Shown here piece by piece: positions 7,770 to 31,943 of a DNA stretch of 57,271 nucleotides. The translations under genes and the position numbers were made by a program. The notes under the pieces were generated by a model that searched no databases, had not been told where the DNA came from, and worked only from the letters and a program-made list of their open reading frames with translations. Source of the stretch: Lachnospiraceae bacterium. GTDB lineage: Bacteria > Bacillota > Clostridia > Lachnospirales > Lachnospiraceae. The stretch covers positions 1 to 57,271 of the forward strand of contig JAIKYA010000138.1 of the NCBI GenBank assembly GCA_024683645.1, written 5' to 3'. The first letter of the stretch is position 1. Every line of letters begins with the position of its first letter.

Positions 7770-8744
7770 ATGACGATAAGGATAAGCGGGACAGGCAGCG
7801 CCCTCCCGGACAGGATACTTACGAACCGTGAGCTGGAGGAGAGAGTTGATACTTCGGACGAATGGATAAGAGAGAGGACCGGTATAGTTACACGGCATAT
7901 CGCCGATAAGGAGACGGTGGCGTCACTTGCTGCAGAGGCCTGCAGGCGGGCACTTGCGGATGCGGGAAAGAAGGCGGAGGAAGTGGAACTGATACTGCTT
8001 GCAAGCTGCTCTTCGGAGATGATGCTTCCCTGCGGGGCCTGTCGCGTGCAGGCAGAGATAGCTGCGCAGAATGCGGCGGCTTTCGATATAAATGCAGCCT
8101 GCAGCGGCTTTGTCTTTGCACTGCAGACTGCCAATGCCTATATAGCATCAGGCATGTACAAAAATGCGCTGGTCGTCGGAGCGGAGGTGCTTTCAGGGAT
8201 AGTAGATCCCTCGGACAGGAATACCTGCATACTCTTCGGCGACGGTGCGGGAGCGGTATTCTGTGAGATGAGTACGGGAGAAGGAGAAGGGATGATCGCG
8301 GCACTGCAGGGCAGCATGGGAGATCGAGGAGGAGTGCTTTGCTGCAGGGCGGGACACAGAAGGGACGCTGACTATGCGGAGTATCCAAAAAAGGATGCCT
8401 TTGTTCATATGGATGGCGCCGAGGTATACAGCTTTGCGGTGCGCACGGTGCCGGCCTGCATAGAAAAGCTCCTGGATATGGCCGGCATGGGAGCTGAAGA
8501 GATCGATCTGTTTCTGCTTCATCAGGCGAATATACGTATCATTAATTCGGTAGCAAAAAGACTGAAGATACCGGCCGACAGATTCCCCTCCGATCTGGAG
8601 CGGGTGGGCAATACTTCATCGGCGGCGATCCCGCTTCTGCTTGATGAATTAAATAAATGTGGTAAAATAGTAAGAGGCTGCAAGCTTGTATTGGCGGCTT
8701 TCGGCGCAGGACTGACCTACGGTGCCTGCGTGCTGCAATGGTGA
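7770..8744 (+). CDS. fabH: 3-oxoacyl-ACP synthase III
   Basis: 324-residue initiating condensing enzyme that joins a primer acyl-CoA to malonyl-ACP. The catalytic cysteine is at about residue 111 in DINAACSGF, histidine in LLHQANIRI and asparagine in GNTSSAAIP, a complete triad. GAGLTYGACVLQW is the usual end. GAGGAGATAAGG precedes the ATG. In streptococci fabH is near the start of the cluster; here it is second to last, immediately before the regulator. Confidence 0.94.
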   Translation: MTIRISGTGSALPDRILTNRELEERVDTSDEWIRERTGIVTRHIADKETVASLAAEACRRALADAGKKAEEVELILLASCSSEMMLPCGACRVQAEIAAQNAAAFDINAACSGFVFALQTANAYIASGMYKNALVVGAEVLSGIVDPSDRNTCILFGDGAGAVFCEMSTGEGEGMIAALQGSMGDRGGVLCCRAGHRRDADYAEYPKKDAFVHMDGAEVYSFAVRTVPACIEKLLDMAGMGAEEIDLFLLHQANIRIINSVAKRLKIPADRFPSDLERVGNTSSAAIPLLLDELNKCGKIVRGCKLVLAAFGAGLTYGACVLQW

Positions 8745-9254: not shown

Positions 9255-10355
9255 TTGAGAGAAAACAGGATCACAGATCAGATCGCTACGATAAAAGATT
9301 TAAAGATGGTTCATTTCTACCGTCTTTTTTCTGCCGGCGGGAGTGTATGCGGGATACTTGCGTATTACGGTGATAAGCTGATAAATCTGTGCAGCGCCGA
9401 TGAACATTTTAACGAGCTGGCAGATCGTATCGCAAAGGTTTATCTGCTCGAAAAGGATGCATCTGACATCCTTGCGGATAAAGAAACCGAGAGATTTCTG
9501 AAACGGATAAGTTCATTCCGGGAAGATTCATTTGAAAAACTGATATCGGGATATAAAAGAACGGATGTGCCCGTGATGCTGCCGAAAGCCTTTTCGGCCT
9601 GTTACATCCTGCCCATTATCGAATACGTCCTTAAGACTCTGTACACCGGGAAGGATGCGTCCGAAGCGGAAGACGGGGCCGGGCCTGTCTTTGACAAAGA
9701 GATAAGGCAGTGGTTCGGGAAGGGAGTGATCGGGGCTATGGTGAACGGAAAGCGCTTAGGCTTTCCGTATCAGATATTCTCAGAGGCCGGCGAATGCTAC
9801 GATATAGTGGTGCGAAACGCTCTTGAGGACGGTAACGGATTAAAGATAGAAGTGAGTTTCGGCTATGACAGGATCACGATATCCTATTACGATCATATCT
9901 TTAAGTATAAAGGAAGCATACAGTATACGATGACTGCTCATAAGGGCAGTGTTTATCATGAACTGGAGAAATGCGGCGAGACAGTGTTTCGGAGCGAGTC
10001 GGAGTGTCCGGCAGCGAAGGGAGCGGTACCGACCCCGCAGGCGGCGCTCGTTGGCGGCTGCGAGGGGACAGCCTGGAGCGGCTTAAAGCTTCCCTGGGGA
10101 GCTGAGCTGTGCTTTGCAGCTGCACAGGGGAAGGAATACAGGATAATAAAGACCGGGGGAAACGATCTGAGCATAAGTTTCGGTATGTGCTTTTGTTATC
10201 TGGAAGAGAGCGGGGATACACCGCTTGAGTTTGGCGAGTATGCCTTCAGGCTCTATGAGAGGAGTGACATAAGCGAGCTGCATCTGCTGGATACGGATAT
10301 ACCGGGATCATCACTGTACAGGGAAAAGTATGCAGGGCGTTATTACAGCAGATGA
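9255..10355 (+). CDS. Uncharacterised beta-rich protein, first gene of an AAA+ cassette
   Basis: About 366 residues; no family recognised. The N-terminal third is helical (DQIATIKDLKMVHFYRLFS, then a long charged stretch). From about residue 150 alternating strands predominate (VIGAMVNGKRLGFPYQIF, LKIEVSFGYDRITISYYD). No signal peptide, membrane segment or nucleotide-binding motif is apparent. The start is uncertain: a GTG at 9222 lacks a ribosome site, whereas TTG at 9255 has GGAG 9 bp upstream, so the latter is used. It follows fabT closely and could be co-transcribed with the fab operon. The next gene, an ATPase, starts 68 bp later past a small stem-loop. Membership in the same system is inferred from position only. 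Confidence 0.6.
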   Translation: MRENRITDQIATIKDLKMVHFYRLFSAGGSVCGILAYYGDKLINLCSADEHFNELADRIAKVYLLEKDASDILADKETERFLKRISSFREDSFEKLISGYKRTDVPVMLPKAFSACYILPIIEYVLKTLYTGKDASEAEDGAGPVFDKEIRQWFGKGVIGAMVNGKRLGFPYQIFSEAGECYDIVVRNALEDGNGLKIEVSFGYDRITISYYDHIFKYKGSIQYTMTAHKGSVYHELEKCGETVFRSESECPAAKGAVPTPQAALVGGCEGTAWSGLKLPWGAELCFAAAQGKEYRIIKTGGNDLSISFGMCFCYLEESGDTPLEFGEYAFRLYERSDISELHLLDTDIPGSSLYREKYAGRYYSR

Positions 10356-10376
10356 CAGGAACGAAAGAGTCCTGTC
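10354..10376 (+). other. Stem-loop between the cassette's first and second genes
   Basis: Perfect 7-bp inverted repeat GACAGGA/TCCTGTC with a 9-nt loop, starting just before the stop codon. Only GTTT follows, so it is at best a weak terminator; it may tune the level of downstream genes or protect an mRNA end. Confidence 0.4.
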
Positions 10377-10423
10377 GTTTGCCATGCAAAAAAGAAGGCT
10401 GATCATAAACGGGGGAGTCGGAA

Positions 10424-12640
10424 ATGGCAGTTAATTACACAAAGGTCGAAAAGACGGCTATAAACAGAAAACTGGCGCGGATCATAGATGCGCTTAAGGA
10501 TGATGCTGAGAAAAAAACATCGATCACCGATGCCATAAAGGAGATCATAGGCGGACTGGAGAGAATGAAGAGCGGCAAGGAAGAACCGAAGATAAGGCCG
10601 CTCGCTCTTTATCTGGATGTGATCGAGATACTGCGGGAGGAAACGCTGCTTACAAATACTTTTCCGTCGCTGGTATCTCATGCGGAGATGATCTACGATT
10701 CCATGTTCGTATACGGAGAGAATACTCCGGACTTTGATGAGCTGGCCGAGATCTATAAAAAGATAGCGGGCAGGGACGGCATAATGATGAAGGGCTTTTT
10801 CGACCCGTATCTGTTTGCGAGCTTCACCGACAAGTCGCAGTATTTCACCCTGGTAAAACTGATCTCGGAGCGTAACGGAGCCTTTGCGATCTTTACGGCC
10901 ATAAAGGCACATGCACCCGAAGCGAGGCAGTTCGTGGTGGATGATACCGCTTATCTGGCTTATCTTCTGAAGCTGGTGCGCAGGCTGGCAGAGACCACTT
11001 CCGACCGCTATGATGCAGTGATCAAAGAAGAAGCGGATATACTCGCTCGCTGCAACGGGCTTTACGATATCGATCCCGTGCGTCTCGCTCAGGTCGAGAA
11101 AAACGTGCACAGTGCAGAGCTTATCATAGAGAACGGAAAGAGCACCCTGGATGCGCTGGAACGCAGGATACGTGATATGGAACGCATTGCCGCAGAGGTA
11201 GAGGGGCGCGTGGAAAATACGGTGAGATCCGGCGAAAGCCTGATGGATAAAAAAGCTGCGGGAGCAGCGGAGAAGCTGGATGCCGTTCTAAGGGAATATG
11301 AAGAGTCACAGAAGAGATCGATACAGCTTGAGAAAGAGATATTTATGAAGGAGCTGTTTTCGGAAGCGGAAAGTGAGATGACAAAGTATAAGTCAATGGC
11401 GAAGACGCTTACCGCAACGACCTCCGCGGAACTGGCGGCACTCGGTAAAAATGCGGACGGGATGATAAACAGGCTGAAGGCGGCTTCTGCAAGCGAAGCG
11501 GAGCTTAAGGCTGCGGCGGGGCGAGCACTTAAGGATAAGGAGCTTTTAGACAGGCTTGAAAAACTCACGCTCTTAAATGACGTGATGATAGGAAGGATGG
11601 AAGCGGCAGCGGGATCAGGGGCCGGTGCATCGGAAGAGGCAGCCGCGGAGAAGACCGTCGAGATACGCAGCGTACCCGTGTACGGGACGGGCATAAAAAA
11701 AAGCGACCGTCCCATAGCTTTAGTCTGTCCGCTGCTGGATCGGAATGTGCCTTTCAAAAAAAGATTTGAACTGGCAATGCAGGAAAAGAAGCGGAGGGCA
11801 AAGGCCGGTGAACTGTTCCACGAGATGTTTGACGATGTGCTCACAGCAGTGATGGAAGAGGTAAATCCTTATCTGATCGGACCTTCCGGCTGCGGCAAGA
11901 CTTATATGATCGGGCAGATAGGGGAGATACTGAACGTGCCCCTGCTTGATATAGGCTATATAAACGAAGAGTATGATATCTTAGGCTATGTTACGGCAAC
12001 GGGCGAATACTCCGAGTCAAACTTTTACCGCCTCTATAAATACGGCGGGATAGCCTTCTGTGATGAGCTGGATAACGGCAACAGCAAGGCTACGGTCAAG
12101 CTGAATTCCTTCCTGTCGAACAGACAGAAGGCAGGGTATTGTTTCCCCGGCGGAGAATACGTGGAAAAACATCCGAACTTCCGTGTGATCGCTGCGGGCA
12201 ATACGGACGGGAGCGGTGCGGATCTGAATTACAGTACCAGGGAAAGAATCGAAGAATCCGTGCAGCAGAGAATGATCCCCATATATGTGGGCTATGACAA
12301 CCGCGTTGAAAAAGAGATACTTAAGGACTATCCCGACTGGTTTGAATTCGCCTGCGCGTTCCGCAGGGCGACGAACCGCTGGGAGGCGGCAAGCGACATT
12401 CCCGCGCAGGGCATATTCACCACCAGGGATGCATACCGTATTAAGATGTATCTGGACAACGGAAGCTTCAGTCCGGAGAAGATAATGAACTATGAATTCG
12501 TACAGACCAAGGAACCGGAGTATCTGGGATTTCTGAAAGAGGAGACAGCAAAGAGCCTGAAGAAGGATTCCGGCGGATACGGTATATATCTGCTGTTTGC
12601 AAAAGAAGCTGACCGCAGGAGAAGCGGCGAAAGAAAATGA
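10424..12640 (+). CDS. CobS/MoxR-like AAA+ ATPase with long N-terminal helical and coiled-coil region
   Basis: 738 residues. Residues 1-210 are helical and of unknown fold; about 215-400 form coiled coil rich in Ala, Glu and Lys; an AAA+ module of the AAA_5 (dynein-related, CobS-like) type occupies about 450-660. Walker A GPSGCGKT is near 486-493, Walker B GGIAFCDELDNGN near 540-552, sensor 1 VIAAGNTDGSG near 588, and YSTRERIEESVQQRM supplies candidate arginine-finger residues. The block SNFYRLYKYGG before Walker B and the phrase on covering a pool of N substrates resemble CobS-like ATPases of phages and chelatases. Such ATPases remodel partner complexes with a vWA-domain protein. The next gene overlaps by ATGA (12637), so the two are coupled. 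Cytoplasmic. Function unknown. Confidence 0.75.
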   Translation: MAVNYTKVEKTAINRKLARIIDALKDDAEKKTSITDAIKEIIGGLERMKSGKEEPKIRPLALYLDVIEILREETLLTNTFPSLVSHAEMIYDSMFVYGENTPDFDELAEIYKKIAGRDGIMMKGFFDPYLFASFTDKSQYFTLVKLISERNGAFAIFTAIKAHAPEARQFVVDDTAYLAYLLKLVRRLAETTSDRYDAVIKEEADILARCNGLYDIDPVRLAQVEKNVHSAELIIENGKSTLDALERRIRDMERIAAEVEGRVENTVRSGESLMDKKAAGAAEKLDAVLREYEESQKRSIQLEKEIFMKELFSEAESEMTKYKSMAKTLTATTSAELAALGKNADGMINRLKAASASEAELKAAAGRALKDKELLDRLEKLTLLNDVMIGRMEAAAGSGAGASEEAAAEKTVEIRSVPVYGTGIKKSDRPIALVCPLLDRNVPFKKRFELAMQEKKRRAKAGELFHEMFDDVLTAVMEEVNPYLIGPSGCGKTYMIGQIGEILNVPLLDIGYINEEYDILGYVTATGEYSESNFYRLYKYGGIAFCDELDNGNSKATVKLNSFLSNRQKAGYCFPGGEYVEKHPNFRVIAAGNTDGSGADLNYSTRERIEESVQQRMIPIYVGYDNRVEKEILKDYPDWFEFACAFRRATNRWEAASDIPAQGIFTTRDAYRIKMYLDNGSFSPEKIMNYEFVQTKEPEYLGFLKEETAKSLKKDSGGYGIYLLFAKEADRRRSGERK

Positions 12641-13533
12641 AACTGAAGACATCCGTACTTACATATGAAGAGCGGAGCTACAGTATCTACCGTATGGATT
12701 TTCGTTCACTGACCGAACTGGAACTGTATCTGAAAAGCGAGCCGAAGGTCAACAGCAAGGTTTTCCCGCTGCAGAAGAGCATAGAGATGCCGCAGGAATT
12801 TGCAGGTGAAAAGCTTGAGGCGGCGATCGAATACTGTCACGGCGGATATGATAACGGCCTGGAGCTCTTTCTCAAAGCAAAGAAGGAACTGGAGAGCAGG
12901 AACGGCAGGGAAGAGACTTTCAGGCGGAGCCTGCCTGCGGTGGTGGGCTCGCGGCCCCATGTACCCAACTTTATCGCGGGGACGCCCAAGACCATGTACC
13001 GCCTCGACCGTGTCAGGGAAAAGAAATTCGTTGATCTGTATATCAACCTGGTCTACAGCGGAGAGACCAGCAAAGAGCAGATCATAAACAGGGGGATACT
13101 GGCGCTTAATCTGATAAATCTTTATGAGCAGCAGGGCATAGCCGTCAATCTGAAGGTATTCGAGGCAAGCTATGTGGCGAATGAGATCTTTATCGCGGAT
13201 ATCACGCTGAAGAAACCGGGGCAGTCCCCAAACATCGGTAAATGCTACTATCCGCTCTGCGGACGTGAATTTATAAGGCGGCTCCTTACAAGGGTGAAGG
13301 AATCCGTACCGTTCAGACAGAACTGGGGAAGGGGATACGGAAGCGTGCTGCCGGAAGAACTGTTAAAGAAGTGCTTAAAGATAGGCGACAAAACCCTTCT
13401 TATACGTTCACCGATAGAGATGGGACTGAAGGGAGTGAACATATACGAGGATGCGGATATATTCTTCAGACAGCTTGAGCTGTCCGAAGATATCAGACTG
13501 CCGGAATACGGGGAGAATAAAAGCAGGATATGA
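12637..13533 (+). CDS. Uncharacterised protein, possible degenerate vWA partner of the AAA+ ATPase
   Basis: 298 residues, translationally coupled to the ATPase (ATGA overlap) and to the next gene. The middle section has SRPHVPNFIAGTPKTMYRLD, then a hydrophobic strand FVDLYINLVYSG, a helix RGILALNLINLYEQQG and a strand VNLKVFEASY. That strand-helix-strand order, and the position after a CobS-like ATPase, recall vWA or CobT-like partner domains, but the metal-binding DxSxS motif expected after the first strand is missing. The assignment is therefore structural inference at low confidence. No membrane segments or signal. The N-terminal 90 residues (YRMDFRSLTELELYLKS) are a separate small domain. 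Confidence 0.6.
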   Translation: MKLKTSVLTYEERSYSIYRMDFRSLTELELYLKSEPKVNSKVFPLQKSIEMPQEFAGEKLEAAIEYCHGGYDNGLELFLKAKKELESRNGREETFRRSLPAVVGSRPHVPNFIAGTPKTMYRLDRVREKKFVDLYINLVYSGETSKEQIINRGILALNLINLYEQQGIAVNLKVFEASYVANEIFIADITLKKPGQSPNIGKCYYPLCGREFIRRLLTRVKESVPFRQNWGRGYGSVLPEELLKKCLKIGDKTLLIRSPIEMGLKGVNIYEDADIFFRQLELSEDIRLPEYGENKSRI

Positions 13534-14126
13534 GCGATGTTTTTAAAAACATGACCGACATACTGAATCTCGGACACGGGACTCAGAGCAGACTGGCAGA
13601 GCTGAACGGGATAGTCGCGGAGCGGATAAGGGAGACGGATAACGCTTACGTGCACAGGCTCTTTGAAGAACTGCTCGAGCTTGTCGCCGAGACGGATGTC
13701 AGCAGGATGGCCGCAAAGGAAGAGAGGCTGGATGCACTGGGACGGGATCTCTCTGCCGTATGTATGGAACTTCTGAAGGAAGCCGAACTGATGCTGGCCA
13801 TGAGAAGTGCAAATGACAGCCTGTTAAAACGGCTGCGTGAGGATATAAAGAAAGCGGAAGATCATGCGGATACGGAGGAATGCGCTGCGATACCGGATGC
13901 TGTCTCAAGGGCGGATGCGCTGAGGCGGCGCGCGGCGGAGCTTCGGGTGACGCTGAACGTGGGTGTCGGTTTTTCCGAACAGATAAGACTGCATGAGAAG
14001 AATCTCCGCTCCCTGGCTGAGCGGATAAAGGATGTGGCGCTCAATCTGATACCGCTCCTGCGAGGGCGGATATCCGCCGAGCACAGCAGGATACTTATCT
14101 CGGAGATAAAGGAGATGATGGTCTGA
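13530..14126 (+). CDS. Uncharacterised helical coiled-coil protein, last gene of the AAA+ cassette
   Basis: 198 residues, almost entirely predicted helix with heptad-like spacing (ETDVSRMAAKEERLDALGRD, and later blocks around KKAEDHADTEE). No cysteines of note apart from two, no transmembrane segment, no recognised family. It starts inside the previous stop codon (ATGA at 13530), so its production is tied to the ATPase and the vWA-like protein. Likely a structural or adaptor subunit; this is inference from coupling and helical composition only. Confidence 0.6.
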   Translation: MSDVFKNMTDILNLGHGTQSRLAELNGIVAERIRETDNAYVHRLFEELLELVAETDVSRMAAKEERLDALGRDLSAVCMELLKEAELMLAMRSANDSLLKRLREDIKKAEDHADTEECAAIPDAVSRADALRRRAAELRVTLNVGVGFSEQIRLHEKNLRSLAERIKDVALNLIPLLRGRISAEHSRILISEIKEMMV

Positions 14127-14151: not shown

Positions 14152-14180
14152 TTGACGCATACGGGGCGTTGAGATATAAT
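14152..14180 (+). promoter_or_regulatory. Strong promoter for yicC-remA-gmk-rpoZ
   Basis: -35 TTGACG (14152-14157), 17-bp spacer, consensus -10 TATAAT (14175-14180). It separates the AAA+ cassette from the core gene block. Confidence 0.8.
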
Positions 14181-31847: not shown

Positions 31848-31848
31848 C

Positions 31849-31932
31849 TGCGGGAAAAGAGACTTGAACTCTCACGCCCTAACGAGCACTAGATCCTTAG
31901 TCTAGCCTGTCTGCCAATTCCAGCATTCCCGC
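31849..31932 (-). tRNA. tRNA-Leu, anticodon AAG
   Basis: 84 nt class II tRNA. Acceptor GCGGGAA pairs with TTCCCGC, discriminator A. Anticodon stem CTAGA/TCTAG encloses the loop CTAAGGA, giving anticodon AAG. A long variable arm and a GTTCAAG T-loop are present. The CCA end is not encoded. Confidence 0.92.
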
Positions 31933-31943
31933 AAACAAATGGT

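Follow-up and report, generated by a model that had tools for sequence, protein, structure and literature searches.

A four-gene cassette of Clostridia linking a CobS-like AAA+ ATPase and a DUF7192 protein to a TelA paralogue

The window considered here is the whole 57,271-nucleotide stretch of contig JAIKYA010000138.1 (GenBank assembly GCA_024683645.1) from a Lachnospiraceae bacterium. Between positions 9255 and 14126 it carries four co-directional genes, referred to below as the cassette: a CobS-like AAA+ ATPase, the gene before it (P1) and the two genes after it (P3 and P4). An earlier note on this DNA, made from its letters alone, had singled out these genes as a possible portable system. 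The genes, and the promoter-like site that follows them, are these:

9255..10355, forward strand: P1, an orphan beta-rich protein of 366 residues; TTG start, 38 bp 3' of a MarR-family gene
10424..12640, forward strand: CobS-like AAA+ ATPase of 738 residues (Pfam AAA_5), with a helical N-terminal arm (about residues 1-440) and the AAA_5 core at 484-608
12637..13533, forward strand: P3, a DUF7192 protein (PF23822) of 298 residues, a predicted vWA-like adaptor without DxSxS; candidate finger at about residues 98-125
13530..14126, forward strand: P4, a shortened TelA-family protein of 198 residues (PF05816)
14152..14180, forward strand: promoter-like site TTGACG-17-TATAAT before yicC (consensus scan, 11 of 12 matches), marking the right boundary

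The start of P1 is most likely TTG 9255, which is preceded by GGAGGGGGA; the mechanical open reading frame (ORF) begins at GTG 9222. In the 38-bp gap between the MarR gene and P1 the consensus scan reported no promoter-like site. The ATPase/P3 and P3/P4 junctions are both ATGA overlaps, as the earlier note had described them, and the downstream boundary promoter that it proposed corresponds to the site before yicC, a consensus match only. The G+C content of the four genes is 0.49-0.55, against 0.494 for the window.

The four-gene set is real and recurs in varied loci. A scan for ATPase peptides in 84,980 species, each represented by a single genome, found 79 loci. They belong to Lachnospiraceae, Oscillospiraceae and related groups, and rumen or gut is the source of many; given that exact peptide patterns were used, this number of loci is a lower bound that leans to close relatives. 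Isolates with the cassette include Eubacterium ruminantium ATCC 17233 (locus L058), NE2001 (L053) and AC2031 (L079). The order is constant, with P1 preceding the ATPase, then P3, then P4 on the same strand, and profiles find all four genes in 68 of the 79 loci; of the remaining 11, ten run into a contig end and one (L072) has an interrupted ATPase. That distant genomes keep the four genes side by side argues against a chance arrangement. The protein alignments (A1, 62 of 73 sequences; A2, 62 of 76; A3, 48 of 74; A4, 45 of 80; window included) were drawn from the loci found through the ATPase, and profile searches are not fully independent of that query; gene starts in the relatives are estimated.

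Within the family the cassette is rare. P1, the ATPase (E<1e-100) and DUF7192 occur in the same three of 200 family genomes (the window's own, G073 and G189), and G073 and G189 carry the cassette TelA too. The ATPase was counted only at this threshold, since the full tally of 153 in 200 consists mostly of short Walker-region matches. The three 200-genome family samples were drawn in the same way and agree in the genomes listed, which are not all of those sampled. A genome of the same genus, G004, lacks the P1, ATPase and DUF7192 set. DUF7192 was found in two of 391 class genomes, the window's own and G487. The G487 copy (L137:5380-6078) lies at a contig end and is nearer the phage profile (E 8e-32) than the cassette profile, and may belong to a prophage.

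The core of the ATPase is an AAA_5 domain (Pfam 5.6e-11; 43 bits against a cut-off of 22) that most resembles the phage CobS family phrog_249 (E 5e-34), as the earlier note's label of CobS-like anticipated. Its relatives in the PDB are CbbQ/NorQ and ClpX, with weak scores. Walker A (486-493), Walker B (D547, E548) and the sensor-region GN (592-593), which we take to have the roles that these names imply, had been judged intact from the single sequence and proved invariant in 45 of 45 aligned ATPases, the catalytic residues being unchanged in relatives as low as 33% identity. Residues 1-439 matched no Pfam family. Residues 219-417 contain no proline, and 216-405 have a helical hydrophobic periodicity whose level was reached by none of 500 shuffles; both features are in line with the roughly 200 residues of coiled coil that had been proposed. 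Homology between this arm and TelA was considered and rejected (probability 0.6%). The ATPase tree was built in quick mode from 72 of 80 sequences, leaving out rows shorter than 680 residues and L011. Two of the relatives are irregular: in L072 (9900-10766) the ATPase frame ends prematurely, at about residue 688, and is followed by an ORF resembling a transposase, presumably of the IS200 type, and in L007 (8001-8368) tblastn homology begins at 8001 and the open frame at 8368, which may reflect a frame break or an assembly error.

P3 is a member of DUF7192 (PF23822; 7.5e-18, 65.3 bits against a cut-off of 27) and matches phrog_1909 (E 2e-21). The earlier note had left all three partners of the ATPase unrecognised, which holds for P1 only; its suggestion of a vWA-like protein lacking the metal motif fared better. 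The AlphaFold2 model of P3 has a vWA-like strand-helix-strand core (pLDDT, the model's own confidence score, 84), and its best Foldseek matches in the PDB are the vWA domains of NorD in NorQD complexes (E 1.2e-3, TM score 0.26), a likeness that is suggestive rather than firm. The DxSxS motif of the metal ion-dependent adhesion site (MIDAS) is absent from all 62 cassette rows and all six phage rows, and the position of the first MIDAS aspartate is mostly N (K in 10, D in 3 and Q in 1 of the 62 rows). Immediately before the first core strand, residues 98-123 are modelled as strand, short helix, strand. The block 91-130 has a pLDDT of 60-64, yet contains 6 of the 17 invariant columns; G104 and G115 are retained in all six phage sequences compared and P117 in five of the six.

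For NorQD, passages of PMC9976466 and PMC13036017 describe a vWA finger that enters the ATPase pore and binds the NorQ pore inserts. The finger (residues 403-448 were deleted in a test) lies early in the vWA part of NorD. The same passages report that the metal site is required for an active target and not for NorQ binding, and that NorD MIDAS mutants co-purify with NorQ nonetheless. In its predicted position the P3 hairpin resembles this finger, and we regard it as a candidate for the same role.

P4 is a TelA-family protein (PF05816; 41.2 bits against a cut-off of 30), and all 48 of its aligned members match this family at E<=0.1 (best 4e-94). The domain in the window is partial, its best stretch covering positions 151-231 of the 332-position profile; longer cassette relatives have about 285-350 residues, and outside the window's clade many relatives are of the longer kind. 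The window's genome has another, full-length TelA on contig C110 (L145:2652-5154), adjoining an XpaC-family gene (PF10112), with two DUF4230 genes next in line. Given this copy beside XpaC, the cassette TelA is a second, dedicated one. A further TelA-like match, on contig C142, is below the cut-off. An operon that strictly links a TelA paralogue to an ATPase motor offers a direct handle on the role of TelA.

P1 is modelled by AlphaFold2 as mostly strands with a mean pLDDT of 90, which bears out the beta-rich character read from its sequence. No convincing family was found in the libraries searched, and among the 62 members scanned any weak match was common to at most two. Its model has no fold match at E<=0.001, viral structures included; there are FABP/lipocalin-like fold matches (best E 0.024) and a RanBP1 profile match (E 0.027), all too weak to name the fold. 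P1 was found in cassette genomes only, among the 200 family genomes and among 398 phylum genomes, where the window's own genome alone has it. It is thus a confidently modelled protein family without recognised relatives in these libraries.

Phages have a related gene pair. Searches of phage records gave 420 matches to the ATPase (E<=1e-4) and 238 to P3 (E<=0.01). In each of seven phage records read (Staphylococcus GH15, Lactobacillus 3-521, Listeria LP-048 and LP-031, Mycobacterium MiniLon, crAss-like cr10_1 and Acinetobacter Herod) a DUF7192 gene scoring above the Pfam cut-off follows the CobS-like ATPase, directly in five and after a small ORF in 3-521 and MiniLon. These DUF7192 proteins are distant from P3, the cassette profile alone matching four of the first six. 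Among 29 viral-contig loci, the phage DUF7192 profile matches the gene directly 3' of the ATPase in seven, and these are seven of the eight loci with the best ATPase matches (E<=5e-15); the eighth, L110, has none. The pattern indicates that DUF7192 pairs with a nearer phage subgroup rather than with every CobS-like phage gene. The ATPases of the seven records have 253-439 residues and lack the long arm, and P1 and TelA gave no profile match in any phage or viral locus scanned. The bacterial set thus resembles the phage pair with the arm, P1 and TelA added. The ATPase-DUF7192 pair was probably taken from phage and extended, a direction of transfer that we infer. Several phage relatives of the ATPase (e.g., H42, H52, H55, H56 and H60) are annotated as 'porphyrin biosynthesis', a label that seems misleading for this phage subgroup, to judge from the DUF7192 neighbour, which is free of DxSxS in the records read.

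The surroundings of the cassette were compared up to 8 kb on each side. In the window its neighbours are MarR and yicC, both identified by Pfam; the other flanking genes we take from their sequences to be acc, fabH, gmk, rpoZ, rimO and remA, with the MarR gene 3' of the presumed fabH. The window's fabH, acc, yicC, remA, gmk, rpoZ and rimO are all missing from the flanks of the 79 loci; a MarR relative lies 5 kb away in one (L053), and the window genes at 207 and 18138 have relatives in 10 and 2 loci, respectively. Clustering of the genes directly beside the cassette gave 53 clusters for 71 upstream neighbours and 52 for 70 downstream ones, a diversity inflated by false ORFs, as genes were called as greedy longest ORFs without a gene finder. 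In the 25 of 144 flank families shown, which resemble a metabolic mixture, there is no recombinase, integrase or transposase, and the cassette ends in the window carry no terminal repeats.

Comparison of DNA in the best 45 pairs of loci gave a mixed picture of movement. In one clade (L049, L050, L053, L055, L056 and L079) at least 10 pairs with 76-79% DNA identity have the whole cassette and no flank in common, despite at least 6 kb being available on each side. In another (L023, L025, L026, L041 and L068), pairs at 77-80% have 4.3-6.5 kb of upstream and 1.1-5.3 kb of downstream DNA in common. L055 (12083) and L062 (3877) are 98.3% identical to 15 bases past the TelA stop and unrelated beyond, and L046 and L051 (97.6%) have only 273 and 103 bases of flank in common; L051 and L062 are metagenome contigs, in which misassembly is possible. 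A flank gene is common to both members in 20 of the 27 pairs whose ATPases are >80% identical. We read these sequence comparisons as pointing to a cassette that may relocate occasionally as an intact block, rather than to a demonstrated mobile element. The idea of a portable cassette thus stands in part: the end of homology at the cassette ends in one clade speaks for it, and the flank genes of close pairs, together with the lack of a recombinase in the families shown and of terminal repeats in the window, speak against it. An empty-site comparison with G004 was uninformative, its best yicC, fabH and MarR matches being on separate contigs (fabH 39% and MarR 33% identical).

Our preferred reading, in which we have slightly more confidence than doubt, is that the cassette specifies a single remodelling machine driven by ATP, built from a MoxR/CobS-type AAA+ motor and a vWA-type adaptor, that acts together with TelA and has its probable place at the envelope. 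In this scenario, the ATPase would assemble as a hexameric ring, and P3 would sit on the ring with its conserved hairpin threaded into the pore, by analogy with NorD and NorQ. ATP hydrolysis could then turn or pull P3. NorD presumably grips its target through a metal site that is missing from P3, and so the target of the cassette may be held by the added parts, namely the TelA paralogue P4, the coiled-coil arm of the ATPase and P1, with TelA possibly forming the link to the target or the membrane. The likely work would be remodelling of an envelope- or membrane-associated complex under stress. What the sequences show directly is the gene content and its constant order, the co-occurrence, the family memberships and the lack of DxSxS; the vWA-like fold and finger of P3 are predicted from its model, and that the proteins form one complex is inferred.

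Several observations weigh against this reading. The Foldseek TM score of P3 is low, all its matches stay above E 0.001, and the next folds in the list are of the Ras type and Ku; as for the finger, 49 of 258 40-residue windows of P3 (the finger stretch included) are equally or better conserved. DUF7192 is absent, by the profiles used, from 22 of the 29 viral loci, 21 of which have distant ATPases, and it exists apart from the ATPase in G487, where the phage-like copy has none in the 5 kb before it. The window's lineage, an Oscillospiraceae clade and L043 all have a truncated TelA and must be able to do without the missing part. The proposed envelope role draws on TelA, the one part of the cassette with a known theme, through the statement of a single paper, PMC7824862, as found in passages of it, and on general background.

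Comparison with known systems places the cassette near several of them. The phage CobS-like and DUF7192 pair (phrog_249 and phrog_1909/PF23822; e.g., GH15 gp047-gp046) is the nearest in arrangement, with DUF7192 adjoining the ATPase and AAA+ cores 25-34% identical among the matches listed, but it differs in the lack of the arm, P1 and TelA noted above. NorQ-NorD shares the AAA_5/MoxR-like core, the structural matches of the P3 model and a hairpin before the first vWA strand, whereas the cassette P3 has no DxSxS metal site and the cassette lies among fab and yicC genes rather than beside NO reductase. CobST likewise has a CobS-like ATPase followed by a vWA-like protein, but CobN is absent from the three cassette genomes searched, P3 lacks a MIDAS, and P1 and TelA are extra. 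The TelA-XpaC arrangement elsewhere in the window's genome differs in that no cassette protein is XpaC and P4 is shortened to 198 residues. In the MoxR-vWA ternary conflict systems (VMAP, iSTAND and FtsH types), as passages of PMC7159879 describe them, a MoxR-type ATPase and a vWA-type protein also act with further partners; in the cassette, by contrast, the partners are constant rather than variable and no effector or peptidase was recognised. The main text of that paper mentions neither TelA nor CobS.

No characterised system with all four proteins was found, and the neighbours of the ATPase do co-occur with it, which leaves the earlier note's proposal of an undescribed system standing. In the open-licence literature searched, this combination of partners with a MoxR/vWA-type motor pair was not found described: there was nothing on DUF7192, TelA with CobS gave unrelated papers only, and TelA with MoxR, XpaC, vWA or AAA-ATPase gave nothing relevant among the matches listed.

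There are four other explanations. The cassette could be a variant of TelA-based resistance to xenobiotic or envelope stress, of the Ter/TelA type, in which the AAA+/vWA-like pair merely assembles sub-membrane TelA structures. P4 is indeed TelA, and in Ter systems TelA and the TerF vWA protein form sub-membrane structures according to a passage of PMC7824862. However, the TerB, TerC and TerD families are unmatched by the four cassette proteins (no search for ter genes extended to the remainder of the genome), and the full-length TelA of the genome is the one adjoining the XpaC-family gene; we consider this explanation unlikely, if the most serious of the alternatives. A role in anti-phage defence, perhaps through interference with phages that have their own CobS-DUF7192 pair, seems unlikelier still. 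It would fit the patchy presence in three of 200 family genomes, the homology bounded by the cassette in one clade, the kinship to a phage gene pair and the existence of conflict systems with MoxR-vWA pairs (described in passages of PMC7159879). Yet PADLOC matches none of the four proteins (best E 0.019), no effector was recognised among them, and the flanks are not rich in defence genes. For the flanks, 126 proteins at -2/+3 were taken from 244 called at -3, -2, 3 and 4, excluding L011 and ORFs of fewer than 100 residues; one proved to be P1 itself (L007), and among the remaining 125 the PADLOC families at E<=1e-10 have 1-3 proteins each (25 of 30 families shown). A defence-island context was rejected for want of a clear signal in these 125.

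That the cassette is selfish or a leftover of phage, with no host function, strikes us as improbable. The phage-type pair and the varied flanks, crude as the gene calls are, would agree with it, but the catalytic residues stay invariant down to 33% identity, the four-gene order is retained, the composition is host-like, the flank families shown have no integrase or transposase, and the viral loci scanned lack P1 and TelA. Least probable of all, and in effect rejected, is a viral-type cobaltochelatase (CobS/CobT) acting with host CobN, as passages of PMC8651126 propose for phage CobST. The ATPase resembles phage CobS (phrog_249), but CobN or the large subunit of Mg-chelatase was found in none of three cassette genomes (G000, 91% complete; the other two 100%), against five of 14 controls by the same search, and P3 has no DxSxS in any of its 62 rows, whereas CobT is described in PMC8651126 as having a MIDAS. 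The metal-site-free DUF7192 neighbour and bacterial hosts lacking CobN argue for a job other than chelation, at least in this phage subgroup.

Returning to the remodelling machine that we prefer, a bolder version can be offered as a speculation that we doubt more than we believe. By adding the coiled-coil arm, P1 and a paralogue of TelA to the phage AAA+/DUF7192 pair, Clostridia may have turned it into a machine of a new class, driven by ATP and acting on TelA structures at the membrane. Phage genes labelled 'CobS/porphyrin biosynthesis' that adjoin DUF7192 would then be remodellers of phage or envelope complexes and not parts of a chelatase, with the metal site of the adaptor dropped.

Some minor observations concern the surroundings of the cassette and the rest of the window. 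Proteins with a GGDEF domain are the commonest neighbours, with 8 of the 125 flanking proteins, a count for which there is no background rate for comparison. A zinc-ribbon protein of about 450-560 residues with a hydrophobic C-terminal part is encoded at +3 in L052, L063, L081, L010, L011, L014 and L016, of which L010/L011 and L014/L016 are near copies; it could be an optional fifth part or a chance neighbour. Elsewhere in the window, ARAGORN calls a tRNA-Leu(aag) at 31848-31933 on the reverse strand that is absent from Rfam at the gathering threshold, and the other two tRNAs are called by both.

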